A DNA stretch of 64,000 nt, from positions 3,534,001-3,598,000 of the forward strand of contig NZ_VMSF01000001.1 of the NCBI RefSeq assembly GCF_009765225.1, given 5' to 3'. This document shows, in pieces, positions 31,379 to 59,977 of this stretch (position 1 is the stretch's first letter; each line of letters opens with the position of its first letter). A program made the position numbers and the translations under genes. The stretch is from Leifsonia sp. AG29 (GTDB taxonomy: Bacteria > Actinomycetota > Actinomycetes > Actinomycetales > Microbacteriaceae). The notes beneath the pieces were generated by a model. The model saw nothing but the letters and a program-made list of their open reading frames with translations, did no database searches and was not told where the DNA came from.

Positions 31379-31632
31379 ATTCGTGCCGAATGACGCTCCT
31401 GCCAGCGCCATACTCGACATTCGTGCCGAATCCTGGAGGGGCCGCCGCCGCGCCTCCCGGTCCGCGCCTCCCGTCCCACGCCGCATTCGTGCCGAATGAC
31501 GCTCATACCAGCGCCATACTCAACATTCGTGCCGAATCCTGGAGGGGCGTCGCCGCGGCGCCTCGTGAACCCGGCCGAGATTCGTGCTGAATGAGGCGTT
31601 TGACGGGGCGATACTCGACATTCGTGCCGAAT
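31379..31632. repeat. Palindromic-motif array A: three units of two 13-bp motifs
   Basis: Six copies of ATTCG-TGC-CGAAT: 31379-31391, 31419-31431, 31485-31497, 31525-31537, 31580-31592 (TGCTGAAT variant) and 31620-31632. In each of three units the two motifs start exactly 40 bp apart. The bases between them are partly shared (GACGCTC...CAGCGCCATACTC), and CTGGAGG follows the second motif. Units start 106 and 95 bp apart. The array lies in the hemD-hemB gap. Confidence 0.9.
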
Positions 31633-31633
31633 C

Positions 31634-31757
31634 TGGAGGCGCGGCGCGAGCAGCGCGAGCGGCGCGAGCAGCGCCAGCGCAGCGTGAGCAGGGCCAGCGC
31701 AGCGCCAGCGCAGCGCAAGCAGCGCCAGCGCCGCCAGGCGACGCCCAGCGCAGCGGG
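31634..31757. repeat. Degenerate GCGCCAGCGCAG low-complexity tract
   Basis: A GC-rich tract built of many AGCGC/CAGCG units (for example GCGCCAGCGCAGCG recurring). I see no gene in it. It separates the palindromic array from the hemB -10 element at 31760. Confidence 0.65.
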
Positions 31758-31759
31758 CG

Positions 31760-31765
31760 TAGGGT
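31760..31765 (+). promoter_or_regulatory. -10 element of hemB, leaderless
   Basis: TAGGGT ends seven bases before the hemB GTG (31773), so transcription should begin at or near the start codon. This gives hemB-hemL a promoter separate from the upstream heme operon. Confidence 0.6.
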
Positions 31766-31772
31766 TGACAGA

Positions 31773-32753
31773 GTGAGTGAGCTCCATCCCGTCATCCGTC
31801 CCCGGCGGCTCCGCCAGTCCCCGGCGATGCGTCGTCTGACCGCCGAGACGCGCCTCCACCCGGCCGAGCTGATCCTCCCCGTGTTCGTCCGCGAGGGCGC
31901 CTCCGAGCCCGTGCCGATCGCCTCCATGCCGGGCGTGGCGCAGCACAGCATCGACTCCCTGAAGCGCGCGGCCGTCGAGGCGGCCGAGGCCGGGATCGGC
32001 GGCATCATGCTGTTCGGCGTGCCCGAGACCCGCGACGCGGTCGGGTCGGCGGCGACCGATCCCGACGGCATCCTCAACGTCGCGACCGCCGCCGTAGCGG
32101 CTGAGGTCGGTGACGCCATCGTCGTTCAGACCGACCTCTGCCTCGACGAGTTCACCGACCACGGCCACTGCGGTGTCCTCGACGGCGCGGGCCACGTCGA
32201 CAACGATGCGACACTCCTCCGATACCGCGACATGGCGCTCGCTCAGGCCGAGGCCGGGTCGCAGCTGCTCGGTCTCAGCGGCATGATGGACGGTCAGGTG
32301 GCCGCCGTGCGCGAGGCCCTCGACGACGCCGGCCGCACCGACGTGGTCCTTCTGGCCTACTCGGCCAAGTACGCCTCCGGCTTCTACGGCCCGTTCCGCG
32401 AGGCCGTCGACTCGCAGCTCTCCGGCGACCGCCGCGCCTACCAGCAGGACCCGGCGAACCGGCGGGAGGGGCTGCGCGAGGCTCGGCTCGATCTCGACGA
32501 GGGCGCCGACATCGTCATGGTGAAGCCCGCCCTGTCCTACCTCGACGTGTTGAGCGACGTCGCCGCCATCAGTGACGTGCCCGTCTGGGCCTACCAGGTC
32601 TCCGGCGAGTACGCGATGGTCGAGGCGGCGGCCGCGAACGGCTGGATCGACCGCGAGCGCATCATCGAGGAGACCCTCGTCGGCGCGCGGCGGGCGGGGG
32701 CCGATGCCGTCATGACCTACTGGGCCGTCGAGGTCGCGGGGTGGCTCCGATGA
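31773..32753 (+). CDS. hemB: Porphobilinogen synthase (5-aminolevulinate dehydratase)
   Basis: A 326-residue enzyme condensing two 5-aminolevulinates. The two Schiff-base lysines lie in [15 protein letters not shown] and [12 protein letters not shown]. The metal loop reads [14 protein letters not shown]: in zinc-type enzymes three cysteines occur here, and the middle one is Asp in this protein, giving a mixed site. I chose GTG 31773 ([17 protein letters not shown]); the frame is open upstream only through the repeat tract. The stop overlaps hemL (ATGA). Confidence 0.95.
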
Positions 32754-34102
32754 CCGGCGAGACCTCCGACCTGCAGGCCGTCGCCGACGGCGCCGCCATC
32801 GGCGACGTCAACCTCGCGCAGTTCGAGCGCGCGCAGCGCGTCATCCCCGGAGGCGTCAACTCGCCCGTCCGCGCCTTCCGGTCGGTGGGAGGCACGCCAC
32901 GCTTCCTCGTGTCCGCGAGCGGCCCGTACGTGACCGACGCGCAGGGCCGCCGGTACGTCGACCTCGTCGCCTCGTGGGGCCCGGCGATCCTCGGCCACGC
33001 GCACCCGGCCGTCGTGGCGGCCGTACAGGAGGCGGCTGCCCGCGGGCTCTCGTTCGGCGCCTCCACCCCCGCGGAGACCGAGCTGGCGGAGGCGGTCATC
33101 GCCCGGGTGCCGCTCATCGAGAAGCTGCGGCTCGTCTCCACCGGCACGGAGGCGACGATGAGTGCGATCCGGCTGGCTCGCGGCTATACCGGGCGTCCGC
33201 TCCTGATCAAGTTCGCGGGGCACTACCACGGGCACTCCGACGGCCTCCTCGCCGAGGCCGGCTCGGGGCTCGCGACGCTCGCCCTCCCGGGCTCGGCCGG
33301 CGTCACCGAGGCGACCGCCGCGCAGACGATCGTGCTGCCGTACAACGATCTGGAGGCGGTCCGCGCGGTCTTCGAGGCGCAGGGGCCGGACATCGCCGCC
33401 GTCATCACCGAGGCCGCCGCCGCCAACATGGGCGTTGTCCCGCCGGACCCGGGGTTCAACGCCGCGCTGACCGACCTCGCGCACGAGTACGGCGCGCTCC
33501 TCATCCTCGACGAGGTGCTGACCGGGTTCCGTGTCGGCGAGGCGGGTTACTGGGGCCTCGACCGCGGTTACGCGCCGGACCTCTTCACGTTCGGCAAGGT
33601 CGTCGGAGGCGGCATGCCGCTCGCCGCACTCGGCGGCCGCGCGGAGCTCATGGACTTCCTCGCTCCGACCGGGCCCGTGTACCAGGCGGGCACCCTCTCC
33701 GGCAACCCGGTCGCCGTCGCCGCGGGTCTCGCGACGCTCGCGCTCGCCGACGAAGCGGTCTACGACCGGCTCGACGTCGTGGCCGATGCGATCTCGTCGG
33801 GAGTGTCGGAGGCCCTCAGCGTCGCCGGTGTCGCGCACCGCGTGCAGCGCGCCGGCAACCTGTTCAGTTTCGTCTTCGGCGAGTACGACACCGCTCCGCG
33901 GACCTACGCCGACGTCCAGCGGCAGGAGGCCTACCGGTACCGCGCGTTCTTCCACGCGATGCTGGACGCCGGGGTGTCCCTCCCGCCGAGCGTCTTCGAG
34001 GCGTGGTTCGTCACGGCCGCGCACGACGACGTCGCGGTCGGCCGCATCCTCGAGGCGCTCCCGGCCGCGGCACGAGCGGCGGCCGCAGCCCTGCCCGCCT
34101 AG
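32750..34102 (+). CDS. hemL: Glutamate-1-semialdehyde 2,1-aminomutase
   Basis: A 450-residue PLP enzyme making 5-aminolevulinate from the HemA product. The PLP lysine is in [12 protein letters not shown], and conserved blocks are [23 protein letters not shown] and [12 protein letters not shown] chose ATG 32750, whose bases overlap the hemB stop (ATGA). GTG 32741 in the same frame is less likely. Together with hemA, hemB and hemC-E it completes the route from glutamyl-tRNA to coproporphyrinogen within this window. Confidence 0.95.
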
Positions 34103-34115
34103 GGGAGCGTCCGGC

Positions 34116-34352
34116 TCACTCGTCCGAGACGGACGGGGCGCGCGACAGCGACTCGACGTACGTGTAGGTCGCCGAACCGGGCCAGCCGTCGGCGTCCAGC
34201 AGGGCGTACACGTCGAACATGAGGGTCCCGCCTCCGCCCGCCGGCCGCCGCAGGGTCCGGGGAGGCGAGTCGGAGGCGGATCTCACCGTGACCGTCTGCG
34301 GCTCGGTGCCGGCGCGCAGCAGCCGGGCGCGGAAGGTGGTCGTGCGGGTCAC
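34116..34352 (-). CDS. Small hypothetical protein
   Basis: A 78-residue protein from GTG 34352 (MTRTTTFRARLL). It has an Arg-rich N-terminal strand region, a GGGGTLMFDVYALLDADGWPGSATYTYV segment and no membrane helix or signal peptide. I do not recognise it. The frame also allows an earlier GTG at 34370. It converges with hemL (14 bases apart) and lies downstream of the sugar ABC operon, separated by strong hairpins, so it should have its own promoter. It may not be a real gene. Confidence 0.45.
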   Translation of the reverse strand: MTRTTTFRARLLRAGTEPQTVTVRSASDSPPRTLRRPAGGGGTLMFDVYALLDADGWPGSATYTYVESLSRAPSVSDE

Positions 34353-34388
34353 CTCTCCACACTCCCACACGCCGCCCGCACAGCGAAG

Positions 34389-34489
34389 AGCGCCCCCTCG
34401 CCGCCGGACCGCTGAGCCGGACTGCGGAGCCGGCGTGCGGCGCCGAGGGGGCGCTCCTGCTGTGCCAGCCCCCTTCGGGTCGGGGCTGG
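34389..34489. terminator. Two hairpins after the sugar ABC operon
   Basis: AGCGCCCCCTCG (34389-34400) pairs perfectly with 34443-34454. CCAGCCCC (34465-34472) pairs with GGGGCTGG (34482-34489) around a CTTCGGGTC loop. The second hairpin lies 14 bases past the stop of the leftward permease gene. Neither has a U-tract. Confidence 0.65.
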
Positions 34490-34502
34490 AGCGGGCGGGT
34501 CG

Positions 34503-35756
34503 CTAGGCCTGCCCGTGCGACTCCCGCGACCGCCGCGACAGCGAGTCGATGATCACGGCGAGCAGCAGCACCGCGCCCGTGATCATGAAGCGGTAGGAGG
34601 AGTCGAGGTTCAGCAGCGTGAGGCCGTTCGAGATGGACTGGATCACGAGGATGCCGAGGAGGGCCGACCACGCCGAGCCGCGTCCGCCGAACAGGCTCGT
34701 CCCGCCGATGACCGCCGCCGCGATCGCGTTGAGGTTGGTGTCCGTGCCTCCCGAGCCGGCGCCCACGGAGGCGAGCCGGGCCGCCGCCAGGATGCCGCCG
34801 ACCGCCGCGAACGTCGAGCAGAGGATGAAGACGCTGATGAACACGCGGTTCACCTTGATGCCGGCGCGGCGTGCGGCCTCCACCGACCCGCCGACCGCGA
34901 AGACCGAACGGCCCCAGCGGGTGCGGGTGAGGAGGAAGTTCATCACGATGACGAGGATCACGAAGAACAGGAACATGGCCCCCGTGCCGCGGTCGGTGGA
35001 CAGGTACCAGACGCTGATGCACAGCCCGATGAGGAGGAGGACGGCCTTGATCAGCACGAGCGTCATCGAGCCCTCGGAGAGCCCGGCCTTGCGGCGGCGC
35101 GCGTTCCGGCGCCAGTCCGACCAGAACATGCCGCCCGCGGCGATGACCGCCAGGGCGTAGGCCGCCCACGGCGGGAGGAACATCTGCTGGGCGAACTGGA
35201 CGATCCAGGAGTCGTACGGGAGGTTGATCGAGCTGTTCGGGCCGAGGATCCACAGCTGGACCCCGAGGAACCCGAGGAGGCCGGCGAGCGTGATCACGAA
35301 GCTCGGCACGCCGAACCGCGTGAAGAGGAAGCCGTACAGCAGGCCGATGGCGCTGCCCGCGAGGATCGCGACGATGAGGGTCAGCGCGAGCGGCCAGTGC
35401 AGCTGGGTGAAACCGACGCCCAGGATCGCCGCGGCCACGCCGCTGACGGAGCCGACCGACAGGTCGATCTGGCCGAGCAGCAGCACGAGCACGATGCCGA
35501 TCGAGATGGTGCCGATCGCGGCGCACTGGAGGGTCAGGTTGACCAGGTTGTTGGCGCTCAGGAAGTTGGGGTTCAGGAGCTGGAACACGACCCAGATCAC
35601 GATCAGGCCGACGACGACCGGGAGGGATCCGAGGTCGCCGCCGCGCACGCGGCGACCGAACCCGCGGACCGCGCCTCGCAGTCCCTCCTCGCGGATCAGC
35701 CGCTCGTCCTGGAGGTCGGCCGCCAACTCGGCCGGGGTCTCTGCTGCCTTGGTCAT
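34503..35756 (-). CDS. Sugar ABC transporter permease (XylH/FrcC-like)
   Basis: A 417-residue membrane protein of the ribose/xylose permease family. The region IDLSVGSVSGVAAAILGV and the later block AVIGGTSLFGGRGSAWSALLGILVI are the family landmarks. About 10-11 hydrophobic segments are present, with an insertion of about 60 residues after the GPNSS loop (WSDWRRNARRRKAG) as in xylose-type permeases. The ATG at 35756 overlaps the ATPase stop (ATGA). It works with the ATPase and binding protein encoded upstream. Confidence 0.9.
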   Translation of the reverse strand: MTKAAETPAELAADLQDERLIREEGLRGAVRGFGRRVRGGDLGSLPVVVGLIVIWVVFQLLNPNFLSANNLVNLTLQCAAIGTISIGIVLVLLLGQIDLSVGSVSGVAAAILGVGFTQLHWPLALTLIVAILAGSAIGLLYGFLFTRFGVPSFVITLAGLLGFLGVQLWILGPNSSINLPYDSWIVQFAQQMFLPPWAAYALAVIAAGGMFWSDWRRNARRRKAGLSEGSMTLVLIKAVLLLIGLCISVWYLSTDRGTGAMFLFFVILVIVMNFLLTRTRWGRSVFAVGGSVEAARRAGIKVNRVFISVFILCSTFAAVGGILAAARLASVGAGSGGTDTNLNAIAAAVIGGTSLFGGRGSAWSALLGILVIQSISNGLTLLNLDSSYRFMITGAVLLLAVIIDSLSRRSRESHGQA

Positions 35757-36589
35757 GCTTCCGGGCTCCGTTCGGGTGCTTCTTCGGCTTCCATGAGCCG
35801 CTCGGCGCGCCGGACCACGACGTTGTCGGTGGCGCCGGTGATCGCCGAGATGATCTCCTCGTAGCTGACATCGGGGACGCGGAAGTCCCCGTTGTTGCGG
35901 CCGAGCCGCAGCACCGCCACCCGGTCGGCGACGGCCTGCACGTCGGCCATGTTGTGACTGATCAGGATCACGCCGAGCCCGCGCTCGCGCAGCCGCTCGA
36001 TGAGGTTCAGCACCTCGGCGGTCTGGGCGACGCCCAGGGCGGCGGTCGGCTCGTCCAGGATGACGACGCGCGGGTCGCCGATGAGCGAGCGCGCGATCGC
36101 GACGGTCTGCCGCTGGCCGCCCGAGAGGGAGGCGACGGCGATGCGGACCGAGGGGATGCGCGCGGACAGCTGCCGGAGCAGGCTCCAGGAGCGCTTCTCC
36201 ATCTCCTCCTCGTCGAGCGTCCCGCGGCTGATCTCGCGGCCGAGGAAGAGGTTCGAGACGACGTCGAGGTTGTCGCACAGGGCGAGGTCCTGGAACACGG
36301 TCGCGATGCCGAGCTCGCGCGACGCCGAGGGGGAGGCGATGCTCACCTCCTGGCCGTCGAAGGTGATGGTGCCGGTGTCCTGCGGGTGCACGCCCGCAAG
36401 GATCTTGACGAGGGTCGACTTGCCGGCGCCGTTGTCGCCGACGAGCGCGACCACCTCGCCGGGGTAGACGTCGAGGTGGATGTCGGTGAGCGCCTGCACG
36501 GCGCCGAAGCCCTTCGAGATGCCCTTGAGGGACAGGACGGGCTGGCGGGCTGACCTCTCCTGTTCCGCGATCGCGGATTCCATGGTCAC
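35753..36589 (-). CDS. Sugar ABC transporter ATP-binding protein, single-domain (FrcA-like)
   Basis: A 278-residue ATPase. Walker A is GDNGAGKSTLVK, the signature is SLSGGQRQTVAIAR, and Walker B is VVILDEPTAALG. Ribose-type systems usually have a fused double ATPase near 500 residues; this single domain resembles fructose-type FrcA. I chose GTG 36589, six bases after AAGGAG; ATG 36583 is an alternative. A stable hairpin separates it from the binding-protein gene upstream and may lower its expression relative to that gene. Confidence 0.9.
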   Translation of the reverse strand: MTMESAIAEQERSARQPVLSLKGISKGFGAVQALTDIHLDVYPGEVVALVGDNGAGKSTLVKILAGVHPQDTGTITFDGQEVSIASPSASRELGIATVFQDLALCDNLDVVSNLFLGREISRGTLDEEEMEKRSWSLLRQLSARIPSVRIAVASLSGGQRQTVAIARSLIGDPRVVILDEPTAALGVAQTAEVLNLIERLRERGLGVILISHNMADVQAVADRVAVLRLGRNNGDFRVPDVSYEEIISAITGATDNVVVRRAERLMEAEEAPERSPEA

Positions 36590-36658
36590 GGCGTTCTCCT
36601 TCGAGCTGTGTGGATCGGTGGTGTTTCGCCCTGCTGGTCCAAGGCTACGGCGGAACCA

Positions 36659-36696
36659 TCCGGCCCGGGATGCGCGATCTCGCACCCCGGGCCGGA
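36659..36696 (-). terminator. Intercistronic hairpin between binding protein and ATPase genes
   Basis: TCCGGCCCGGG (36659-36669) is exactly complementary to 36686-36696, and the inner bases TGCG/CGCA (36671-36674 and 36681-36684) extend the stem after one mismatch. Such stems after binding-protein genes usually attenuate or stabilise the transcript, so that the binding protein is made in excess. Confidence 0.7.
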
Positions 36697-36706
36697 CGGT
36701 CTGGTG

Positions 36707-37828: not shown

Positions 37829-37873
37829 TGAAAAACCTCCGATTCGGGACCGCCTTCGTTGGCGGCTGGGTTG

Positions 37874-37932
37874 AGTGTGTCAGTTCGGAGAATTGGCGTC
37901 AAGACTTGAATTCAACAGTTTCGATAACGGTT
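37874..37932 (-). promoter_or_regulatory. Promoter and operators of the sugar ABC operon
   Basis: On the minus strand TTGACG (37902-37897) and CACACT (37879-37874) are 17 bases apart. Just upstream are the palindrome TTGAATTCAA (37906-37915) and an AACCGTTATCG element (37922-37932), whose mirror-image half recurs at the ROK gene promoter (39184-39194). These are candidate ROK repressor sites. Confidence 0.55.
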
Positions 37933-37975
37933 CGTCACGCTTTCGGGGGGCGGCCCGCGCGGGTGCCGGGCGCGG

Positions 37976-39160: not shown

Positions 39161-39247
39161 GAGCAGAAGGATACATGCAGCCCAACGGTTATCGGTTTGT
39201 GAGGTTCACCGGTCCCCGCGCACGCGGCCGCTTGGCAGGATAGAGGT

Positions 39248-39634: not shown

Positions 39635-39655
39635 CGCCGCGCGGGCGCGGGTTGC

Positions 39656-40036: not shown

Positions 40037-40066
40037 GCGGTCAGCATAGCGACCGGGCGGCGGCTG

Positions 40067-41089
40067 TCAGGCGCGCACATCGATCACGGTCCGGCCGCGC
40101 AGCCGTCCCGCCAGGATGTCCTCCGCCGCGGGGATCGCGTCCGCCAACGGGAGGAACGAGGTCATCGCGGCGAGCGCCTCCTCGTCGAGCGAGTCGCCCA
40201 GCCGGCGCCAGGCCGTGTCGCGCAGGGCGGCCGGCGCCTCCACGGAGTTGATCCCGACGAGTGTGACGGCCCGCAGGATGAACGGCATCACGGTGGCCGG
40301 GAGGTCGGGGCCGGCCGCGAGACCGCAGGCGGCGACCACGCCGCCGTACCGGGTCTGCGCCAGCGCGTTCGCGAGGGTGTGGCTGCCGACGGAGTCGACC
40401 ACGGCCGCCCAGCGCTGCTGCTGGAGGGGCCGGCCCGGGTCGGCGAGCTCCTCCCGATCGATGATCGCCTCGGCGCCGAGGTCCGTCAGGTAGTCGCCCT
40501 GCTCCTCCGCGCGACCGGTGGAGGCGGTGACCGGGTACCCGAGGCCCGCCAGGAGGGCGACGGCTACCGACCCGACGCCGCCGGCGGCACCCGTGACGAG
40601 CACGCTGGTGCCGCTGGCGCGCACCTCCGCAGGGTCGAGCCCGTGGCGTTCCAGCGCGAGGACGGCGAGCATGGCCGTGAACCCGGCGGTCCCGATCGCC
40701 GCCGCCTGCGCACTGGTCAGCGAGTCCGGCACCCGGACGAGGGCGTCGCCGCGGACCCGGGCCCGCTCGGCCAGGCCGCCGTGGTGCTTCTCGCCGATGC
40801 CGTCCCCGTTGAGCACGACGCGGTCGCCGGGACGCCACCGCGGGTCGTCCGAGGCCTCGACGGTGCCGACCAGGTCGATCCCGGGGATGAGCGGCGAGGT
40901 GCGGGCCACGCCGGGACGCCCGGCGATCGCGAGGCCGTCCTTGTAGTTGAGATCTGAGTATTCGACCGCGACGGTGACATCGCCCGGCATCAGGAAGTCG
41001 TCGGCGACCCTCCTGACCTCGGCTGTGTGGGCGGTGACCCGCCCTCCCTCGATCTCCTGCTCGATGACAATCGCCCGGAAGTCGCCCAT
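40067..41089 (-). CDS. MDR-family oxidoreductase, YhdH/AcuI type (acryloyl-CoA reductase-like)
   Basis: A 340-residue NADPH-dependent medium-chain reductase without zinc motifs. Characteristic blocks are VEYSDLNYKDGLAIAG, LIPGIDLVGTVEAS, GEKHHGGLAERARV and the cofactor loop VTGAAGGVGSVAVALLAGLG. Relatives (YhdH, AcuI) reduce acryloyl-CoA; other quinone or enoyl substrates are possible. The ATG at 41089 lies six bases after TAGGGT (41101-41096 minus strand). The first palindromic motif of locus B begins 22 bases upstream of that -10 element. Confidence 0.9.
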   Translation of the reverse strand: MGDFRAIVIEQEIEGGRVTAHTAEVRRVADDFLMPGDVTVAVEYSDLNYKDGLAIAGRPGVARTSPLIPGIDLVGTVEASDDPRWRPGDRVVLNGDGIGEKHHGGLAERARVRGDALVRVPDSLTSAQAAAIGTAGFTAMLAVLALERHGLDPAEVRASGTSVLVTGAAGGVGSVAVALLAGLGYPVTASTGRAEEQGDYLTDLGAEAIIDREELADPGRPLQQQRWAAVVDSVGSHTLANALAQTRYGGVVAACGLAAGPDLPATVMPFILRAVTLVGINSVEAPAALRDTAWRRLGDSLDEEALAAMTSFLPLADAIPAAEDILAGRLRGRTVIDVRA

Positions 41090-41123
41090 GCGCTCACCCT
41101 ACGCTCGCCCCTCGGGGTGCGAG

Positions 41124-41176
41124 ATTCGTGCCGAATGTGGGGCTGCGAGGCGCACAGCGCAACATTCAGCACGAAT
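41124..41176. repeat. Palindromic-motif pair B1, inverted
   Basis: ATTCGTGCCGAAT (41124-41136) and ATTCAGCACGAAT (41164-41176) start 40 bp apart. The second is the inverse of the TGCTGAAT variant, so the pair can fold into one long hairpin with one mismatch in the outer 15 bp. Confidence 0.88.
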
Positions 41177-41217
41177 GCGTCGTTGCGCCCGCGCTCGCCG
41201 TGCTCCGGAGGTGTGAG

Positions 41218-41270
41218 ATTCGTGCCGAATGTGGGGCTGGGAGGTGCGCAAAGCGACATTCAGCACGAAT
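41218..41270. repeat. Palindromic-motif pair B2, inverted
   Basis: ATTCGTGCCGAAT (41218-41230) and ATTCAGCACGAAT (41258-41270), again 40 bp apart and inverted. It is nearly a copy of pair B1; the sequence between the motifs (GTGGGGCTG, GAGG, GCGCA) is also alike. A short ACGAGGCACAAG-type tandem tract follows at about 41289-41332. Confidence 0.88.
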
Positions 41271-41336
41271 GTTGCCCCCGCGCCAGCGGCACGAGGCACG
41301 AGGCACAAGCACGAGGCACAAGCACGAGGCACCGCC

Positions 41337-42113
41337 TCAGGTCAGCACCTGCGTCCCCTCGGGGAGGCTCCCCCCGGCGTACAGTGCGTGTGCCGTCTCG
41401 AGCAGTGCCGTGAGCGCCACCCGCTGCGTCCACGGCCCGTACGAGACCCGAGCGACGCCGAGCTCCTGGAGGCGCGCCGGCGGGAGGGACCCGGGGACGG
41501 CGATGACGCTGAGCCGGCGCTCGCCGAGGCCTCCGACCAGCCGCTGCACCGTCCGCTCGTCGAGCCTGCCGGGCACGAACACGCAGGTGGCGCCCTCGTC
41601 GAGGAAGGCGCGGCCGCGGCGCACCGCCTCCTCGATCTTCTCGTCGTCGGTGGGGAACGCGTCGCGCAGGAAGACGTCGGTCCGAGCGTTGAGCGCGAAG
41701 GGGACGCCCTCGGCGGCGGCGGCCGAGACAGCGGCACGCACGGCGGCGACGGCCTCGTCGAAGGGCTTCATCTGGTCCTCGAGGTTCGCGCCGACGACGC
41801 CCACGTCGATCGCGCGCCGGATGGTCTCGCCGGCGTCGCCGTAGCCGGCCTCGAGGTCGGCGCTGACCGGGAGGTCCGTGACGGCGACGATGCGACCCAC
41901 CATGTCGAGCATCAGGTCGAGCGGGATGCGCTCCCCGTCGGGGTAGCCGAGCGTCGCGGCGATGGAGTGGCTCGCCGTGGCGAGCGCGCGGGTCTCGGGA
42001 ACCTGCGCGACGACGCGGGCGCTGATCGCGTCCCAGACGTTGACGACCTGCAGGAGTTCGGGGGCTTCGTGGAGGCGCCGGAGCTCGGCGCCGCGCTCGC
42101 GGATGTCCGTCAT
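41337..42113 (-). CDS. Isocitrate lyase/PEP-mutase superfamily enzyme
   Basis: A 258-residue (beta/alpha)8 enzyme. Family landmarks are VVNVWDAISARVV, the metal-site region VSADLEAGYGD, GANLEDQM and ALNARTDVFL. The KKCGH-type catalytic loop of true isocitrate and methylisocitrate lyases is absent, so it belongs to the PEP-mutase/oxaloacetate-decarboxylase-like branch; the reaction is unknown. The ATG at 42113 lies six bases after TAGTGT (42125-42120 minus strand), a leaderless start. Motif pair C lies just upstream. Confidence 0.87.
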   Translation of the reverse strand: MTDIRERGAELRRLHEAPELLQVVNVWDAISARVVAQVPETRALATASHSIAATLGYPDGERIPLDLMLDMVGRIVAVTDLPVSADLEAGYGDAGETIRRAIDVGVVGANLEDQMKPFDEAVAAVRAAVSAAAAEGVPFALNARTDVFLRDAFPTDDEKIEEAVRRGRAFLDEGATCVFVPGRLDERTVQRLVGGLGERRLSVIAVPGSLPPARLQELGVARVSYGPWTQRVALTALLETAHALYAGGSLPEGTQVLT

Positions 42114-42119
42114 CCCCCC

Positions 42120-42222
42120 ACACTACGACCGCGCACCGGTGCGAGATTCGTGCTGAATGTGGGCTCTCAGGCGCGGAAAGCGACATTCAGCACGAATGTG
42201 GCGCCCCGGCGCGCCGTACGAT
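42120..42222. promoter_or_regulatory. Divergent leaderless promoters enclosing motif pair C
   Basis: The leftward -10 element TAGTGT (42125-42120) and the rightward -10 element TACGAT (42217-42222) stand six bases from their start codons. The palindromic motifs at 42146-42158 and 42185-42197 fall where both -35 regions should be. The layout suggests that one DNA-binding protein could control both genes. Confidence 0.55.
42146..42197. repeat. Palindromic-motif pair C, inverted
   Basis: ATTCGTGCTGAAT (42146-42158) and ATTCAGCACGAAT (42185-42197) are exact inverses, 39 bp apart; with flanking GT/AC the perfect arms are 15 bp long. This is the cleanest pair in the window. Confidence 0.9.
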
Positions 42223-42228
42223 GTGCCC

Positions 42229-50866: not shown

Positions 50867-50915
50867 TCCGCCGGGCCCCTCCCATCACGAGCCAGCAGCG
50901 AAGGAGCGCCGAGCC

Positions 50916-52043: not shown

Positions 52044-52056
52044 GCCCCCACACCGA

Positions 52057-52089
52057 GAAGCGCCCGGAGCCGACGGCCCCGGGCGCTTC
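52057..52089. terminator. Terminator between prpC and the thiolase gene
   Basis: GAAGCGCCCGG (52057-52067) and CCGGGCGCTTC (52079-52089) form a perfect 11-bp stem with an 11-base loop. It lies between converging genes and can serve both. Confidence 0.8.
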
Positions 52090-52114
52090 CGTGTCATAGA
52101 CACTGTCGACGCGG

Positions 52115-53302: not shown

Positions 53303-53347
53303 GGCGACACTCCTTTATGTCAGGGGTGCCTCCATTGTGTCACCGGC

Positions 53348-54676
53348 CTACGGGGTGAGGCGGGTGGGGCCGCGGAAGAGGTAGGTCGTCTCGCGCAGGT
53401 TCGACAGGTGCAGCATGAGCATGAGCACGCGCGCGAGCCCCATGCCGAAGCCGCCGTGCGGCGGGATGCCGTACCGGAACGTGGCGAGCACGTCCTCCAG
53501 CTCCTCCACCGACAGGCCCTTCTCGACGGCCTGCTTCTCGAGGATGTCGACGCGGTGCTCGCGCTGCGCGCCCGTGGAGATCTCGACGCCGTTGAAGATG
53601 AGGTCGTAGCTCTTGGTGAGCGACGGGTTCTCCTCGTAGCGCATGTGGTAGTACGGGCGGATGCTCGCCGCGTAGTCGGTGAGGAACACGAACTCGTGCC
53701 CGTACTGCTCCTTCACGTACGCGGAGATCCGGCGCTCGCCCTCCGGGTCCATGTCGTCGTCCTCGCGCGGGACCTCGTAGCCGCCCTCGGCCACGATGCG
53801 CTTCGCCTCGGCGAGCGGGATGCGCGGGAACGGCGTCGACGGGACGGTGACCTCGACGCCGAACAGCGCCTCGATCTCCTCGCCGTGCTTCTCCTTGACG
53901 GCGGTGAAGCCGGCGACCAGCAGCTCCTCGTGCACCTTCATGACGTCCTCGTGGCTGTCGATCCAGCTCAGCTCGGTGTCGATGCTGGTGAACTCCGTGG
54001 CGTGGCGGCTCGTGAAGCTCGGGTCGGCGCGGAACGCCGGGCCGATCTCGAACACGCGACCGAAACCGGCGGCCTGTGCCATCTGCTTGAAGATCTGCGG
54101 GCTCTGCGCGAGGTAGGCGGTGGTGTCGAAGTACGGCAGCTCGAACAGCTCGGCGCGCGACTCGGAGGCGGACGCCATGAGCTTCGGGGTGTGGATCTCG
54201 ACGAAGCCGTTCTCGACCCAGTACTGGCGGAGGGCGTGCTCGAACGTGGTCTGCACGCGGAAGATGAGGTTGTGCTTCGGCTCGCGGAGGTCGAGGAAGC
54301 GCCAGTCCATGCGCTTGTCGATGCCGCTGTCGGCGGCGATCGGCGTCTCGGGGATCGCGGCGGTCTCGACCGTGAGCGATTCGATCCGGATCTCGATGCC
54401 GCCGAGCTTCACGCGCTCGTCGTGCTTGAGCTGGCCGGTGACACGCACGAACGAACCCTGAGAGAGTCCGGAGATGGTGGTGGCGGGCTCGTCCGCGACG
54501 ACGGTGCCGTCCTCCGCGGTGGTGCGGGGGTTCACGAGCTGGACCGCGCCCGACTCGTCGCGCAGCACGACGAACTGCACCTTCTTCTGATCGCGGACGG
54601 TCTCGACCCATCCGGCGACACTGACGGGGCCGTCGGTGCGGGCGGCGAGGTCCTTGATCAATACGCGTGAAGTCAC
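53348..54676 (-). CDS. aspS: Aspartate--tRNA ligase, archaeal/short type (possibly non-discriminating)
   Basis: A 442-residue class II synthetase. The OB-fold domain (SVAGWVETVRDQKKVQFVVLRD) is followed by the catalytic core with motif 2 (FEIGPAFRADPSFTSRHATEFTSID) and motif 3 (GGFGMGLARVLMLML). It lacks the ~120-residue GAD insertion of ordinary bacterial AspRS (~590 residues), so it is of the archaeal/eukaryotic type. Such enzymes may also charge tRNA-Asn for the GatCAB route; this is not provable here. I chose GTG 54676, with TAGGCT eight bases upstream; GTG 54682 is possible. Confidence 0.93.
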   Translation of the reverse strand: MTSRVLIKDLAARTDGPVSVAGWVETVRDQKKVQFVVLRDESGAVQLVNPRTTAEDGTVVADEPATTISGLSQGSFVRVTGQLKHDERVKLGGIEIRIESLTVETAAIPETPIAADSGIDKRMDWRFLDLREPKHNLIFRVQTTFEHALRQYWVENGFVEIHTPKLMASASESRAELFELPYFDTTAYLAQSPQIFKQMAQAAGFGRVFEIGPAFRADPSFTSRHATEFTSIDTELSWIDSHEDVMKVHEELLVAGFTAVKEKHGEEIEALFGVEVTVPSTPFPRIPLAEAKRIVAEGGYEVPREDDDMDPEGERRISAYVKEQYGHEFVFLTDYAASIRPYYHMRYEENPSLTKSYDLIFNGVEISTGAQREHRVDILEKQAVEKGLSVEELEDVLATFRYGIPPHGGFGMGLARVLMLMLHLSNLRETTYLFRGPTRLTP

Positions 54677-54784
54677 GGTCACCTAGCCTACCGCCCGCGA
54701 TTCGGCCGGGCACCGGGTCCGCGGGCCGCGACGAGGGAGGCGCGCTCAGTGAATTCAAGGGATGCGGCTCCGTAGACTGTGACG

Positions 54785-55504
54785 GTGGTAGCAAGCCAGG
54801 TTCATCTCGTCCGTCACGGCGAGGTGTTCAATCCCGACGGCATCCTGTACGGCAGGCTGCCGGGCTTCGGCCTCTCCAAACTCGGGCACCGGATGGCTCA
54901 GGCGGCCGCCGACGAGCTGGCGGCCCGCGGCCGCCCCATCACCTCCCTCCGGGTGTCGCCCCTCCAGCGCACCCGCGAGTCGGCCGCCCCGATCGCCCGG
55001 GTCACGGGCCTCGACCCCGTGATCGACGATCGCATCATCGAGCCGACGAACCACTTCGAGGGCACGGTGATGCGGCGCGCGCTGAAGCGCCCCGTCAACT
55101 GGCCCTTCGTCGTCAACCCGCTGCGGCCGAGCTGGGGCGAGCCCTACCGCAGCATCGAGAAGCGCATGCTCGCCGCCGTCGAGGAGGCGTTCGACTCGGT
55201 CGACGACGGAGACGTCGTCCTCGTCAGCCACCAGCTGCCCATCTGGGTCACGCACCTCTCCGTCGCCGGCGAGCGGCTCTGGCACGACCCGCGCAGCCGG
55301 CGCTGCGCACTGTCCAGCATCACGACGTTCGAGCGGGTGGCCGTTCCGGTGGAGGCGCCGGCGTCCGACGCGGCTCCGGCCGCTCCGGCGGGGGCCGTCC
55401 CCGCCGCCGAACCCGCCGCCCCGGCGCACCGGCTGATCGAGGTCGGCTACGTCGAACCGGCGAGCTCGCTGCAGGCGGCCGCCACCGATGTGGGGGCCGT
55501 GTGA
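54785..55504 (+). CDS. Histidine phosphatase-family protein at the head of the ccs operon
   Basis: A 239-residue protein of the phosphoglycerate-mutase-like fold. The phospho-histidine motif is LVRHGEVFNPDGILYGRLPG, the second histidine is in VVLVSHQLPIWV, and VSPLQRTRESA is conserved. The C-terminal ~50 residues are Ala/Pro-rich. Its substrate is unknown. Its stop shares a base with the tlpA-like start (TGATG at 55502-55506). GTG 54785 lies six bases after TAGACT (54773-54778), a leaderless start; GTG 54779 is unlikely because it touches that element. Confidence 0.85.
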   Translation: MVASQVHLVRHGEVFNPDGILYGRLPGFGLSKLGHRMAQAAADELAARGRPITSLRVSPLQRTRESAAPIARVTGLDPVIDDRIIEPTNHFEGTVMRRALKRPVNWPFVVNPLRPSWGEPYRSIEKRMLAAVEEAFDSVDDGDVVLVSHQLPIWVTHLSVAGERLWHDPRSRRCALSSITTFERVAVPVEAPASDAAPAAPAGAVPAAEPAAPAHRLIEVGYVEPASSLQAAATDVGAV

Positions 55505-56130
55505 TGAGAGCTCGTCCTCGCGGCCGCACGCTCCGGGCGCGGCTCGCCGTCCCGGCGGTCGCCCTCGCGGCGACCGCTGCGCTCCTCCTGTCGGGCTGCT
55601 CCTCCAACGACAGCCTCGCCAGCCAGTACCGCTCCGGCAGCGGCCAGAACTACATCGCCGGCGACGGCACCGTCAGCGAGTTCGCGGCCGCGAGCCGCGG
55701 GAGCGCCGTGACGTTCTCCGGCACGCTCGCCGACGGAACGCCGGTCTCGTCGAAGGACTACGCGGGCAAAGTGCTCGTCGTCAACTTCTGGTACGCGGGC
55801 TGCCCGCCGTGCCGGGTGGAGGCGCCCGAGCTCGAAAAGCTCTATCAGAAGTACGGTCCGCAGGGCGTCGCCTTCCTCGGGGTCAACCTCTACGACACGG
55901 CCAGCACGGCGGCCAGCTTCGAGCACGACAAGGGGGTCACCTACCCCTCGGTGCTCGACCGCGACACCGGGTCGGTCCTGCTCGCCTTCAGCAAGACGGT
56001 CCCGCCGAAGGCGACGCCGACCACGCTCGTCGTCGACAAGCAGGGCCGTGTCGCCGCGCGCATCCTCGGAGCGCTCCCCGACGCGAGCATCCTCGACTCG
56101 CTCATCTCCGACGCCGTGGCCGAGCACTGA
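55504..56130 (+). CDS. TlpA/ResA-like thioredoxin lipoprotein
   Basis: A 208-residue extracytoplasmic thiol-disulfide protein. An Arg-rich N-terminus, hydrophobic stretch and lipobox LSGC anchor it in the membrane. The thioredoxin fold has the active site WYAGCPPCRVEAPEL and the cis-Pro region KATPTTLVVDKQGRV. It should keep apocytochrome c cysteines reduced before heme attachment by ResB-CcsB, with electrons from CcdA, all encoded downstream. It overlaps the phosphatase gene by one base. Confidence 0.92.
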   Translation: MRARPRGRTLRARLAVPAVALAATAALLLSGCSSNDSLASQYRSGSGQNYIAGDGTVSEFAAASRGSAVTFSGTLADGTPVSSKDYAGKVLVVNFWYAGCPPCRVEAPELEKLYQKYGPQGVAFLGVNLYDTASTAASFEHDKGVTYPSVLDRDTGSVLLAFSKTVPPKATPTTLVVDKQGRVAARILGALPDASILDSLISDAVAEH

Positions 56131-56131
56131 C

Positions 56132-56872
56132 GTGGGCGGCGTCGGACAGATCGTGTTCAGCGGCCAGCTCCTCCTGGCCCTGCCCATCGCCCTCCTCGCG
56201 GGCCTCGTCTCGTTCGCGTCGCCGTGCGTGCTGCCCCTGGTGCCGGGCTACCTGGCCTACGTCGGCGGCATGAGCGACCCGGGCGCCAAGCGCGATCGTT
56301 CGCGCGTGCTGACCGGCGTCGCTCTGTTCGTCCTCGGCTTCGCGGTCGTGTTCATCGCCTACGGTGCGGCCTTCGGTGCGCTCGGCCTCTGGCTGGTGCG
56401 CTGGCAGGAGGTCGTCATCCGGGTCCTCGGGGTGCTCGTCATCCTCATGGGCCTCGTCTTCATCGGGCAGTTCTCGTTCCTGCAGCGCACGATCAAGCCC
56501 GGCTGGAGGCCCGCGACCGGCCTCATCGGGGCGCCCCTCCTCGGCATCGTGTTCGGCCTCGGCTGGACGCCGTGCATCGGCCCGACCCTCGCCGCGATCA
56601 GCGCCCTCAGCGTCGGAAGCGGCTCGCCGTGGCGCGGTGCGCTCCTCGGGCTCTTCTACTGCATCGGCCTCGGCATCCCGTTCCTCCTCGTCGCCCTCGG
56701 CTTCGACTGGGTGGCGGGCTCCGTCGCCTTCCTCAAGCGGCACATCCGGGCCATCAACATCATCGGCGGCGTCCTCCTCGTCGTCATCGGCGTCCTCATG
56801 GCCACCGGCCTGTGGAGTCAGCTCATGTCGCAGTTCCTGGGGGTGATCCAAGGTTTTGAGCCGGCCCTCTGA
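56132..56872 (+). CDS. ccdA: CcdA-like thiol-disulfide transmembrane transporter
   Basis: A 246-residue membrane protein with six transmembrane helices. The two redox cysteines are in LVSFASPCVLPLVPGYLAYVGG and FGLGWTPCIGPTLAAI, the classic CcdA pair. It carries reducing power from cytoplasmic thioredoxin across the membrane to the TlpA-like protein. It begins with GTG 56132, two bases after the tlpA stop. Its end overlaps the resB start by 17 bases. Confidence 0.94.
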   Translation: MGGVGQIVFSGQLLLALPIALLAGLVSFASPCVLPLVPGYLAYVGGMSDPGAKRDRSRVLTGVALFVLGFAVVFIAYGAAFGALGLWLVRWQEVVIRVLGVLVILMGLVFIGQFSFLQRTIKPGWRPATGLIGAPLLGIVFGLGWTPCIGPTLAAISALSVGSGSPWRGALLGLFYCIGLGIPFLLVALGFDWVAGSVAFLKRHIRAINIIGGVLLVVIGVLMATGLWSQLMSQFLGVIQGFEPAL

Positions 56873-58484
56873 TCACATCGAGGCGGCGCCTCCCGTCGAG
56901 GACGCCGACGTCGTCCAGCCCAAGCTCGGCCCGCTGGGGTGGGTCCGCTGGTTCTGGCGTCAGCTCACGAGCATGCGGACCGCCCTGTTCCTGCTGCTGC
57001 TTTTGGCCATCGCCGCGGTCCCGGGCTCGCTGGTGCCGCAGCGCAGCTCCGACCCCAACGGCGTCACCAAGTACTTCACGGACAACCCGTCGCTCGCGCC
57101 GATCCTCGACAAGCTGCAGTTCTTCGACGTGTACACGTCGGTGTGGTTCTCGGCGATCTACCTGCTGCTGTTCGCCTCCCTGATCGGCTGCATCATCCCG
57201 CGCACGAAGCACCACTTCGAGGCGATGCGGGCGAAGCCGCCGCGCACGCCCGCCCGGCTCACCCGGATGGCGGGGTTCCAGGCCCGGATCCTGCCGGCGG
57301 AGCTGAGGGGCCGCGGCCGCGACCCGATCGATGCCGCCCGGGAGGTGCTGCGCGCCTCCCGCTACCGGGTCGCCCTCTACCAGGACGCCCGCTCGGTCTC
57401 CGTCTCGGCCGAGCGCGGTTACCTCCGCGAGACCGGGAACCTCGTGTTCCACATCGCGCTGCTGGGGGTCCTGGTGGCGATCGGCGTCGGCGGCGGCTTC
57501 GGGTACACCGGCCAGAAGATCGTCGTGGAGGGGCAGAGCTTCGTCAACAGCCTCCCGTCGTACAACTCGTTCAACCCGGGCCGCTTCTTCAGCGACTCGG
57601 CGCTCGCGCCGTTCTCGATCACGGTCGACAAGCTCGCGGTGTCGTACGAGACGCGCAACAAGAACGGGCTCGGAACCCCGCTCGACTACACGGCGCACGT
57701 GACGACGGTCGGGCCGGGCGACAGCCGCGACAAGACCGTCATCAAGGTGAACGATCCGCTCCCCATCGGCGGGACGAACGTGTACCTCCTCGGCAACGGC
57801 TACGCGCCGACGATCACGGTGCGCGACACGAAGGGGCACGTCGTCTTCAGCGACTCCGTCCCGTTCATCCCGCAGGCCGATCCGAACCTCACCTCGCTCG
57901 GGTTCGTGAAGGTGCCCGACGGGCTCTCGCGCCAGGTCGGCATGATCGGCTTCTTCTACCCGACGGTCACGAGCAGCTCGGTGGGGCACGGCGCCCTGGC
58001 GTCGAAGTTCCCGGATCTGCGCGATCCGGTGCTGAGCCTCAACGTGTACTCCGGCGACCTCGGCGTCGACAGCGGGGTCCCGCAGTCCGTCTACGCGCTC
58101 AACACCGATCACCTCAAGCAGCTGGCCGGCCCCGGAACCGACACGAAGGCGCTCGAGCTCCGCCCCGGTCAGACGGTGGCGCTCCCGAGCGGCCTCGGCA
58201 CGATCACGCTCGAGGGCGTGAAACGCTTCGCGACCCTGGAGGTGCACCACGATCCCGCCCAGGGCTGGGTGCTCGTGTTCGCGGTGCTCATCCTCGGCGG
58301 CCTGCTCACATCGCTCTTCGTCCCGCGCCGCCGCATCTGGGTGAAGGCCGTCGAGAACGACGACGGCTCGCTCACCCTCGAGTACGCCGGCCTCGCCCGC
58401 GGTGAGGACCCGAACCTCCTCCCCGCCATCCGCGCCGTCGCCGACGAGCACGCGGCCCTCCTAACCCGACCCGAGAAGACTTAG
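56856..58484 (+). CDS. resB: Cytochrome c biogenesis protein ResB
   Basis: A 542-residue component of the System II heme lyase. It has three N-terminal transmembrane helices (MRTALFLLLLLAIAAVPGSL; a second near SVWFSAIYLLLFASLIGCII; a third near LVFHIALLGVLVAIGVGGGF), a large extracytoplasmic domain and a last helix (VLVFAVLILGGLLTSLFV). It acts with CcsB to carry and attach heme. The start is a TTG (56856, MSRPSDHIEAAPP) after AAGG, inside the end of ccdA. Confidence 0.93.
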   Translation: MSRPSDHIEAAPPVEDADVVQPKLGPLGWVRWFWRQLTSMRTALFLLLLLAIAAVPGSLVPQRSSDPNGVTKYFTDNPSLAPILDKLQFFDVYTSVWFSAIYLLLFASLIGCIIPRTKHHFEAMRAKPPRTPARLTRMAGFQARILPAELRGRGRDPIDAAREVLRASRYRVALYQDARSVSVSAERGYLRETGNLVFHIALLGVLVAIGVGGGFGYTGQKIVVEGQSFVNSLPSYNSFNPGRFFSDSALAPFSITVDKLAVSYETRNKNGLGTPLDYTAHVTTVGPGDSRDKTVIKVNDPLPIGGTNVYLLGNGYAPTITVRDTKGHVVFSDSVPFIPQADPNLTSLGFVKVPDGLSRQVGMIGFFYPTVTSSSVGHGALASKFPDLRDPVLSLNVYSGDLGVDSGVPQSVYALNTDHLKQLAGPGTDTKALELRPGQTVALPSGLGTITLEGVKRFATLEVHHDPAQGWVLVFAVLILGGLLTSLFVPRRRIWVKAVENDDGSLTLEYAGLARGEDPNLLPAIRAVADEHAALLTRPEKT

Positions 58485-58494
58485 GCTGGTTCCC

Positions 58495-59577
58495 GTGACC
58501 GAAACCCTGGCTCAACTCTCGACCGTGTTCCTCTACGCGGCGATGGGCCTGTACGCCGCGGCGTTCATCGCCTTCGCCCTCGACCTCGCCCGCCGGGGCG
58601 CGCGGGCGACGGCGGCCGAGGCGGCCGTGGTCCCCAGCGCCGTCGCGCGCCGGGCCGCCGCAGCGGCGAACAGCTCCGGCGCCCCGACCACCACCCTGAC
58701 CGTCGAGGGCGGCCCCGGCGGGGAGGCGCCCCCGCCCCCGCCCCCGCCGTCGTCGGCGCTCGGCCGGCTCTCCTCGCGCATCAGCGAACGCGTCGAGGAC
58801 GACGTCATGAACGGCGGAGGCACGGCCTCCCTGCGCTGGGCGTTCGGCTTCACCATCGTCGGATTCGCTGTGCAGCTGGTGGCCGTGGTCCTCCGCGGCA
58901 TCGCCGCCGCCCGCGTGCCGTGGGCCAACATGTGGGAGTTCTCGATGACGGGCACCCTCGTCATCATCGGGGTGTTCCTCCTGGCCAACCTCAAGTGGGA
59001 CATCAAGTACGTGGGCACGTTCGTGCTGGGGCTCGTGCTGGTGCTGCAAGGCATCGCGCTATTGCGGTACTACGTGCCGGTGGTCCCCCTCCAGCCGGCG
59101 TTGCAGTCGTACTGGCTGGTCATCCACATCATCGTCGCCGTGCTCGGCACGGCGTTCTTCGCCCTCGGATTCGCGCTCTCCGGGCTGCAACTGCTGCAGT
59201 ACCGGCGCGAACGGCAGGTCGCCGAGTCGCGTCCTCAGCAGTTCCGGTTCCTGCAGACCCTCCCCGGCTCGGTCGTGCTCGAGAACCTCGCCTACCGGAT
59301 CAACATCGTCGGCTTCATCGCCTGGACCTTCACCCTGATCGCGGGGGCCATCTGGGCCGAGAAGGCGTGGGGCCGGTACTGGGGGTGGGACACCAAGGAG
59401 GTCTGGACCTTCATCATCTGGGTGATCTACGCCGGGTACATCCACGCGCGCGCCACCCGCGGCTGGCGCGGTTCCCGCTCCGCGTGGCTCGCGATCATCG
59501 GATTCGCCGCGGTGCTCTTCAACTTCGGCATCGTGAACGTGTTCTTCCACGGGCTGCACGCGTACTCCGGACTCTGA
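58495..59577 (+). CDS. ccsB: Cytochrome c biogenesis protein CcsB (CcsA-type)
   Basis: A 360-residue membrane protein with about eight helices. The heme-binding WWD-type motif is WGRYWGWDTKEVWTFIIWVIYAGYIHARAT, and flanking histidines (VIHIIVAVLG, FHGLHAYSG) can bind heme. A Pro/Gly-rich cytoplasmic insert of about 60 residues follows the first helix. GTG 58495 lies seven bases after TAGGCT (58482-58487), so this last gene also has its own leaderless promoter, although only 10 bases follow resB. A terminator lies at 59597-59625. Confidence 0.94.
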   Translation: MTETLAQLSTVFLYAAMGLYAAAFIAFALDLARRGARATAAEAAVVPSAVARRAAAAANSSGAPTTTLTVEGGPGGEAPPPPPPPSSALGRLSSRISERVEDDVMNGGGTASLRWAFGFTIVGFAVQLVAVVLRGIAAARVPWANMWEFSMTGTLVIIGVFLLANLKWDIKYVGTFVLGLVLVLQGIALLRYYVPVVPLQPALQSYWLVIHIIVAVLGTAFFALGFALSGLQLLQYRRERQVAESRPQQFRFLQTLPGSVVLENLAYRINIVGFIAWTFTLIAGAIWAEKAWGRYWGWDTKEVWTFIIWVIYAGYIHARATRGWRGSRSAWLAIIGFAAVLFNFGIVNVFFHGLHAYSGL

Positions 59578-59596
59578 TCGCGGTCGCTCTCCGCTG

Positions 59597-59629
59597 AGAC
59601 CCCTCGGGCTGACGCTCGGGGGGTCTTTC
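59597..59629 (+). terminator. Rho-independent-like terminator after ccsB
   Basis: AGACCCCTCG (59597-59606) pairs with CGGGGGGTCT (59616-59625) with one imperfect pair, and TTTC follows. It is the most classical terminator in the window, 19 bases after the ccsB stop. Confidence 0.8.
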
Positions 59630-59639
59630 GCGTATCGGG

Positions 59640-59740
59640 GGCGTCGTCGCGCCTCGGGGTGTCGCGCCGCGTGCCGCCGCGCCGCGGGCCGCGGCACCTC
59701 GGGGTGTCGCGCCTCGGGCCGCCGTGCCGCCTCCCGCTGG
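59640..59740. repeat. Gene-free GC tract with 16-bp direct repeats
   Basis: CTCGGGGTGTCGCGCC occurs at 59653-59668 and again at 59698-59713, within a CG-rich stretch of CGCGCC/GCCGC units. I see no gene here. It lies between the ccsB terminator and motif array D. Confidence 0.55.
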
Positions 59741-59745
59741 CCCAT

Positions 59746-59977
59746 ATTCGTGCCGAATGAGCCGCACGCGGTGCCGGCGAGGCCGAGATTCGTGCCGAAT
59801 GCAGCGCAAGAGTCGCTCCTTCCCCAGATTCGTCACGAATGTGCTTCCCCCGTCGCCCGACCCTCGAGCGCGGTTCCCGCCATTCGTCACGAATGTTGCC
59901 GGGGGTGCTCGCGGGAGCTGCATTTGTCACGAATGCGGCGAGCGGCTCCATGGAGGAGCGCGACATTCGTCACGAAT
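59746..59977. repeat. Palindromic-motif array D beside the rRNA operon
   Basis: Six motifs: ATTCGTGCCGAAT at 59746-59758 and 59788-59800; ATTCGTCACGAAT at 59828-59840, 59882-59894 and 59965-59977; and ATTTGTCACGAAT at 59922-59934. Starts are 42, 40, 54, 40 and 43 bp apart. The centre changes from TGC to TCA part-way through; TCA copies occur only here. It lies between ccsB and the rRNA promoters. Confidence 0.88.

Follow-up and report, generated by a model that had tools for sequence, protein, structure and literature searches.

Noc sites, matS and SlmA sites are short palindromes scattered over the chromosome, the KorB operators of IncP plasmids are formed by a 13-bp palindrome bound by a helix-turn-helix dimer, and bacterial transcription is as a rule taken to end at RNA hairpins or through Rho. 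Here, a family of paired 13-bp palindromes (ATTCG-N3-CGAAT) was analysed in a 64 000-nucleotide stretch of Leifsonia sp. AG29 (the window: RefSeq assembly GCF_009765225.1, contig NZ_VMSF01000001.1, C1:3534001-3598000 of the 3.68-Mb genome, G000 in our own labelling). Unlike Noc, matS and SlmA sites, the Leifsonia palindromes form strict 40-bp pairs in clusters at gene ends, show no clear bias towards origin or terminus and are tracked by no extra ParB-type protein; unlike the KorB operators, they are chromosomal, reach hundreds of copies and are tracked by no KorB-like paralogue.

The GTAG and CGTC superfamilies of REP/BIME elements, in the available part of their description (PMC3733652), resemble the Leifsonia units in being short palindromes that are often paired and often lie downstream of genes; the Leifsonia units differ in whole-turn phasing, in dialects, in having no common element body and in that no Y1 transposase was found. 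The DNA uptake sequences of the Neisseriaceae, as far as the available text of PMC3630211 goes, share clade specificity, dialects and inverted pairs tied to terminators, whereas the Leifsonia motif is palindromic, nearly never within genes, far less numerous and arranged in phased arrays. In the accessible part of PMC4892627, CRP has a target between convergent genes at which one site drives a hidden small gene; the placement is the same, but that is a single target and not a genome-wide family of arrays. No description of the Leifsonia pairs was found in the literature searched, judged partly by titles, and the genus goes unmentioned in the available parts of the RepRanger paper (PMC12306157), PMC3733652 and PMC5217627. 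This fits the view of an earlier reading of the window from its letters alone (the sequence-only reading) that the family looked undescribed.

The explanation that we favour, and regard as more probable than not, is one of phased protein sites in 3' spacers. Each palindrome (CGAC-ATTCG-TGM-CGAAT-GTCG) would be bound by a dimeric protein that recognizes this DNA sequence and that part of the genus Leifsonia possesses; two such sites at a distance of 40 bp would flank a weaker or degenerate site at their midpoint and make up a 53-bp unit. Tandem duplication would multiply units locally, and in the window's genome they would mostly be held on one face of the helix (7 to 10 turns), so that bound complexes touch and form an array. 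Past a stop codon, the bound array would act as a boundary that either blocks read-through and convergent transcription or fixes local chromosome structure; at icd, a unit would have been taken over as an RNA-hairpin terminator. We infer the bound protein from the sequence patterns described below. That the array acts as a boundary or roadblock, an insulator or a chromosome-structure element is a weaker suggestion, drawn from its place in 3' spacers.

Occurrence and anatomy of the palindrome pairs

The window was searched for ATTCG-N3-CGAAT with at most one mismatch. This gave 19 matches against 1.09 expected; none of 100 shuffles reached 19, the largest count being 4. Eighteen matches lie in four clusters holding 6, 4, 2 and 6 copies, in agreement with the sequence-only reading, which had placed at least 18 copies at four intergenic sites; its coordinates and all eight of its pair spacings (40 bp in seven, 39 bp at 42146/42185) were correct. 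The nineteenth match (54379-54391) is isolated, has one mismatch, lies within a called gene and by its look is due to chance. GAG, said to be frequent before left motifs, precedes 6/8 of them, and GAC precedes 4/8 of the right motifs; the centres do vary, being mostly TGC/GCA and TGA/TCA in genome-dependent proportions.

In the whole genome the same search returned 271 matches, compared with 5 for a reversed control, and the asymmetric form ATTCGTGMCGAAT occurs in 88 forward and 75 reverse exact copies, compared with none in the control. Clusters are spread from 155 kb to 3.59 Mb. The fetched portion of the genome holds 223 of the 271 sites in 39 clusters (48 sites lie outside it), and there 102 of the 183 neighbour distances of up to 130 bp are exactly 40 bp. 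The two outcomes that had been named as speaking against a real family, counts at the level of base composition and no excess of spacings near 40 bp, are thus both contradicted.

A scan of related genomes had also been proposed. Of the 28 Leifsonia genomes, 22 have exact 40-bp pairs, numbering from 3 to 326 in each; no control genome has any. Across a family sample of 299 genomes from 85 genera, six of the genomes being Leifsonia, only this genus rose above background (22-459 exact motifs compared with 0-7), and in a phylum-level sample of 396 genomes the pair was found in the window's genome only, the other 395 having none. Scanning genome contigs for exact pairs gave at least 120 stretches; of those listed, 118 come from Leifsonia records, one from Microbacterium and one from Bacteroidia. 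Within the samples searched, the trait is restricted to the genus Leifsonia and to part of its members. The Microbacterium case (Microbacterium sp. 18062, L036:6636-6688) is a single pair with long complementary arms, 28 bp past a called gene end; either transfer or a hairpin arisen by chance could explain it. The pattern was found in none of the viral contigs of IMG/VR, and a phage origin of the pairs was rejected.

The six pair-free Leifsonia genomes have the lowest identities in their PEP-mutase matches (70-78%, compared with at least 80% in the others), three of the six matches being partial. In the icd gene tree they fall within one half, but three other pair-bearers and L. aquatica belong to that half too and support is weak on many branches, so that the tree favours neither gain nor loss of pairs.

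The unit is 53 bp long and consists of the 13-bp palindrome (P1), a 27-bp middle and a second P1. Over 81 sources, 166 of the 206 neighbouring distances below 200 bp are exactly 40 bp. P1 has the weakly extended consensus CGAC-ATTCG-N3-CGAAT-GTCG with the centre TGM; the flank consensus beside the stem is CGAC/GTCG, the REP tags being GTAG and CGTC. In L. shinshuensis, TF02-11 and an uncultured relative the middle often contains a third palindrome, ATTCGTGSCACGAAT, which places centres every 20 bp. The middle of the L. aquatica group has AT triplets at positions 20-22 and 32-34 (AT 0.89-1.0, n = 38) in a GC-rich frame; they lie 10 bp from the triplets of the palindromes, with AT 0.03-0.21 in between. 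In Leifsonia sp. CL147, P1 is often repeated every 40 bp in long runs. Loci L036, L090 and L117 were left out of the consensus, AT-profile and pooled covariation work. The sequence-only reading had taken 40 bp as four helical turns. The spacing stands and the turns do not: it amounts to about 3.8 turns inside the unit, and it is the distance from pair to pair that tends to whole turns.

Phasing, dialects and placement

Pair-to-pair distances in the window's genome (60-125 bp only; here and in the two analyses that follow, repeated spacings within a cluster were counted once; n = 40) cluster at 74-75, 83-85, 94-97 and 106-107 bp, corresponding to 7 to 10 turns. Their best period is 10.5 bp (R = 0.62), a value equalled by none of 2000 jittered sets, and 29/40 lie no more than 1.5 bp from whole 10.5-bp turns. 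For the inter-pair spacings by themselves the best period was 10.9 (R = 0.67, n = 48; 0/2000 under each of two nulls). In genomes G006 and G007 together, for TGA copies only, spacings of 25 and 35-38 bp gave a best period of 10.0 (R = 0.84, n = 28; 0/2000), with G007 spacings taken from among the matches listed and its five-fold tandem array counted once. Helical phasing, which we had taken as a mark of a dispersed protein-binding array, is thus present in three genomes. Such phasing belongs to the double helix and is hard to account for by RNA.

The core differs between genomes. TGA:TGC counts are 456:0 in G022, 226:2 in G016, 148:1 in G008, 80:2 in G023 and 22:0 in G011, compared with 0:57 in G019 and 0:54 in G021; 15 further genomes are mixed. 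The heterogeneity is large (chi-square 1297, 21 degrees of freedom, with tandem copies not independent). An equal base preference at unlinked loci points to a reader acting in trans. A candidate case of core switching, a CL147 unit at the place of an L. virtsii unit, was not borne out, the L032 units lying about 700 bp further on.

Placement was counted on the loci of other species together with the window, leaving out L036 (Microbacterium), L090 (Bacteroidia) and loci below 3000 bases, as in the terminator counts below. Only 9/399 exact motifs lie within called genes. Among spacers of at least 53 bp, units are present in 58/105 convergent, 41/245 tandem and 8/157 divergent ones; loci L031-L150 had been chosen for holding pairs, which inflates the fractions within each class and affects the comparison between classes little. 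Counting spacers of any length, 60 convergent, 43 tandem and 8 divergent spacers hold units. The first motif follows the stop codon at a median of 16-18 bp, and in 36 of the 43 tandem spacers the unit is closer to the upstream stop. In the window's own genome one of 208 sites is in a gene; spacers with units are 17/23 convergent, 17/43 tandem and 2/20 divergent, and the unit is closer to the stop in 16/17 tandem spacers, at greater distances than in the other loci (medians 53 and 66 bp). Since units lie mostly past stops and are rare between divergent genes, they are unlikely to be classical operators.

The genes that flank units are varied and many are metabolic. Genes of the REase_MTES_1575 type adjoin units at L051:2829-3740, L060:6810-7595, L217:1803-2105 and L036:5582-6403: when one such protein served as query against 1140 called proteins, five matched, and four of the five were flagged beside units. 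The matches in L051, L060 and L147 apparently represent one orthologous locus, and the independent cases are too few to build on.

Features of the window

Genes were called with our own codon-usage script and not taken from a published annotation. The units, lone palindromes and neighbouring genes are as follows.

30404..31189 (+): hemD-like uroporphyrinogen-III synthase gene, upstream of the 31.4-kb cluster; own gene call, to which the one HEM4 match among the scanned flanking proteins presumably belongs
31379..31431: 53-bp unit; palindromes at 31379 and 31419, cores TGC and TGC
31485..31537: 53-bp unit; palindromes at 31485 and 31525; starts 106 bp (about 10 turns) past 31379
31580..31632: 53-bp unit; palindromes at 31580 (one mismatch) and 31620; starts 95 bp (about 9 turns) past 31485
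31827..32753 (+): hemB-like delta-aminolevulinate dehydratase gene, downstream of the 31.4-kb cluster; own gene call, to which the one ALAD match among the scanned flanking proteins presumably belongs
40067..41089 (-): gene (open reading frame and gene call) that we take to encode an acuI/YhdH-like reductase; its start is preceded by the 41.1-kb cluster
41124..41176: 53-bp unit; palindromes at 41124 and 41164 (one mismatch)
41218..41270: 53-bp unit; palindromes at 41218 and 41258 (one mismatch); starts 94 bp (about 9 turns) past 41124
41337..42113 (-): PEP-mutase-family gene (from the one PEP_mutase match among the scanned flanking proteins); its stop is followed by the 41.1-kb cluster and its start is preceded by the 42.1-kb unit
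42146..42197: 52-bp unit; palindromes at 42146 and 42185, spacing 39, one mismatch each and mutually exact reverse complements
58495..59577 (+): gene upstream of the 59.7-kb cluster, presumably ccsB/resC-like
59746..59758: lone palindrome, the next one 42 bp on
59788..59840: 53-bp unit; palindromes at 59788 (TGC) and 59828 (TCA)
59882..59934: 53-bp unit; palindromes at 59882 (TCA) and 59922 (one mismatch); starts 94 bp (about 9 turns) past 59788
59965..59977: lone palindrome (TCA), 43 bp past the preceding palindrome
60635..62158 (+): 16S rRNA gene, downstream of the 59.7-kb cluster

The left flank of the 42146 unit is GGTGCGAG, the same as at 41124, and that at 41218 is GGTGTGAG. GC-rich low-complexity tandem repeats adjoin three of the four clusters (31297-31375, 31639-31755, 41288-41332 and 59645-59721), which suggests that spacers grow by slippage. 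At gathering scores, Rfam found nothing in the window but 16S and 23S rRNA.

Weighing the explanations

In addition to phasing and dialects, the reading of the palindromes as sites of a dimeric protein draws on 14 orthologous unit pairs, one of them icd and one unit (L053) used twice. Changed positions number 7/84 in the core, 12/112 in the inner flanks, 13/84 at the AT-triplet positions, 25/182 in the rest of the middle (the middle outside the inner flanks being summed as 38/190), 27/112 in the outer four bases and 135/308 in the next eleven; the comparison is ungapped, so that indels inflate the outer figures, and the pairs were picked for exact palindromes in both species, so that conservation of ATTCG/CGAAT is uncounted. 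Compared in this way, orthologous units are conserved at the level of their bases.

These features of the comparison weigh against the dimeric-protein reading, as do the other observations of this paragraph. Pooled, the remaining named species apart from CL147 showed no phasing (n = 19, R = 0.3, 1356/2000), and the CL147 arrays run at 40/80 bp, which are not whole 10.5-bp turns. Some genomes have few pairs (three in G011, 11-18 in several), so an essential function is unlikely. A search for a binder, including an autoregulated one encoded beside a unit, singled out no gene. Of the 72 listed flanking genes of the window's genome (70 distinct), 60 were scanned as one set, and among the 25 most widely shared of 123 families only GntR was DNA-binding and present in more than one member (2/60); a second set of ten contained one AsnC-type regulator. 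Among genes with a unit up to 400 bp upstream (56 of 83 scanned), no family occurred in more than three members and no helix-turn-helix family was recurrent. Numbers of ParB_N matches do not track the motif, with one each in the motif-rich G000, G008 and G022, four in the motif-less G014, and four, four and three in the motif-rich G007, G023 and G001; a site for a ParB paralogue of the Noc/KorB type is therefore unlikely, and this candidate was set aside as unsupported. The 41-42 kb units of the window have no counterpart, the motif (at most one mismatch) being present in 0/24 full-length or near-full-length orthologous loci; one of the three partial PEP-mutase matches holds a single copy. The spacer from the window's PEP-mutase gene to the next gene is 247 bp, compared with 14-164 bp in 23 relatives with a pattern-found start. 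The units at this locus are probably recent gains, and sites appear to be gained quickly. Finally, to judge by the alignment considered next, the unit at icd has become an RNA terminator and has lost the need for P1.

That the palindromes are in general the arms of a long RNA hairpin ending the upstream gene, their sequence being an accident of common origin, is unlikely, although the icd locus and the position of units just past stop codons favour it. After icd, 15 of the 28 genomes carry a unit or a derivative (both P1 intact in eight, one in three, none in four) and in the remaining 13, one of them the window's genome, a different GC hairpin takes its place, judged by eye to be the ordinary terminator. 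In the alignment of the 15 sequences, 13 of 22 predicted pairs have both sides changed in at least one sequence, and three folded units gave z-scores of -9.2, -9.1 and -8.3. At these loci (L179-L206) the palindrome-pair hairpin stands in the terminator position of the relatives and drifts with compensatory changes. G008, otherwise TGA-only, has a single exact TGC copy genome-wide, and its icd locus holds one. All pair-free genomes have the ordinary terminator, which suggests that the unit replaced it rather than the reverse. The icd case looks like an exaptation and not the rule, because left and right halves of the middle do not covary significantly within genomes generally: with near-duplicate middles removed, no genome or group tested gave significance (CL147 p = 0.95, the window's genome p = 0.66). 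Weak trends towards complementarity in DSM 20146 (p = 0.07), 71-9 (p = 0.08) and the pooled aquatica group (p = 0.054) tell against the protein reading. Folding four window units against shuffles was equally divided, with z of -2.7 and -3.7 for two and of +0.24 and -0.93 for the two that fold no better, and in the 42146 unit the mismatch of one arm is matched on the other. Palindromes within each arm, dialects and phasing would be unexpected for hairpins. The 59.7-kb cluster already lies behind a separate GC hairpin with a T-run at about 59598-59629, between it and the 58495..59577 gene (by eye). A hairpin with a T-run is about as frequent at gene ends with units (convergent 5/99, tandem 2/34) as without (9/98 and 8/209), and the idea that units are placed where canonical terminators are missing was rejected on these counts.

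A non-autonomous mobile or selfish repeat of the REP/BIME or MITE type, tolerated at gene ends, is quite unlikely. The range of 0 to 326 pairs among relatives, the recent gains at the PEP-mutase locus, the flanking bases common to the 41.1- and 42.1-kb units and the intergenic placement would suit it. The RAYT domain Y1_Tnp (PF01797) is present in 0/28 Leifsonia genomes, compared with 5/14 control genomes. Among 98 pairs in 35 clusters of the window's genome, the 27-bp middles of different clusters differ at a median of 14 positions (minimum 6), equal to the column-shuffled null; middles with at most seven differences make up 19/4638 comparisons (0.41%, null 0.16%), an excess that leaves room for slight relatedness between loci. 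Within clusters the median is 7, which we read as the trace of tandem duplication. Arrays also grow between species, L066 having one pair and its homologue L113 four. A REP-like repeat moved by a RAYT transposase, one of the options of the sequence-only reading, is refuted by the missing Y1_Tnp and the unrelated middles, and helical phasing and genome-wide dialects also tell against a mobile repeat.

If the units were places where gyrase or a general nucleoid protein wraps DNA and so relieves supercoils between convergent genes, this would account for the convergent bias, the AT triplets every 10 bp and the whole-turn phasing. We find this very doubtful: a near-invariant 10-base palindrome that switches dialect suits a specific reader better, and gyrase is universal in bacteria, unlike the motif. 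An uptake-type recognition sequence with species dialects, as in the Neisseriaceae, is extremely improbable, for although a genus-specific short motif, dialects, inverted pairs and one terminator-like case recall it (available part of PMC3630211), just 1/208 sites of the window's genome lie in genes, copies number at most hundreds (highest exact count 459) and not thousands, and the arrays are helically phased.

Position relative to the origin was also checked, as had been advised. With dnaA at 3.424 Mb, no exact site is listed in G000:C1:3241491-3565379 (324 kb, holding dnaA and parB); with about 36 clusters spread over 3.64 Mb, a rough estimate puts the expected number of gaps this large at about one, and there are sites near the presumed terminus. 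Since the gap is unremarkable and sites run along most of the chromosome, no bias is claimed, and a role in origin, terminus or segregation is without support. Of the options in the sequence-only reading, the protein site is supported by phasing, dialects and the conservation of orthologous units.

Returning to the proposed protein sites, we put forward tentatively, as possible rather than probable, a 3'-boundary element: a phased, clade-specific protein array past stop codons would insulate often convergent genes and co-evolve with the dialects, and single units could be converted into RNA terminators. If true, a genus-wide family of phased sites with dialects at the 3' ends of genes would constitute a gene boundary based on protein, a kind that is unusual among bacteria. 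The TGC-only, TGA-only, mixed and pair-free species would form a natural series in which the binder and many sites may have changed together, and icd would allow a unit to be compared directly with an ordinary terminator at one locus. The spread of such site families without a known transposase becomes testable in Leifsonia.

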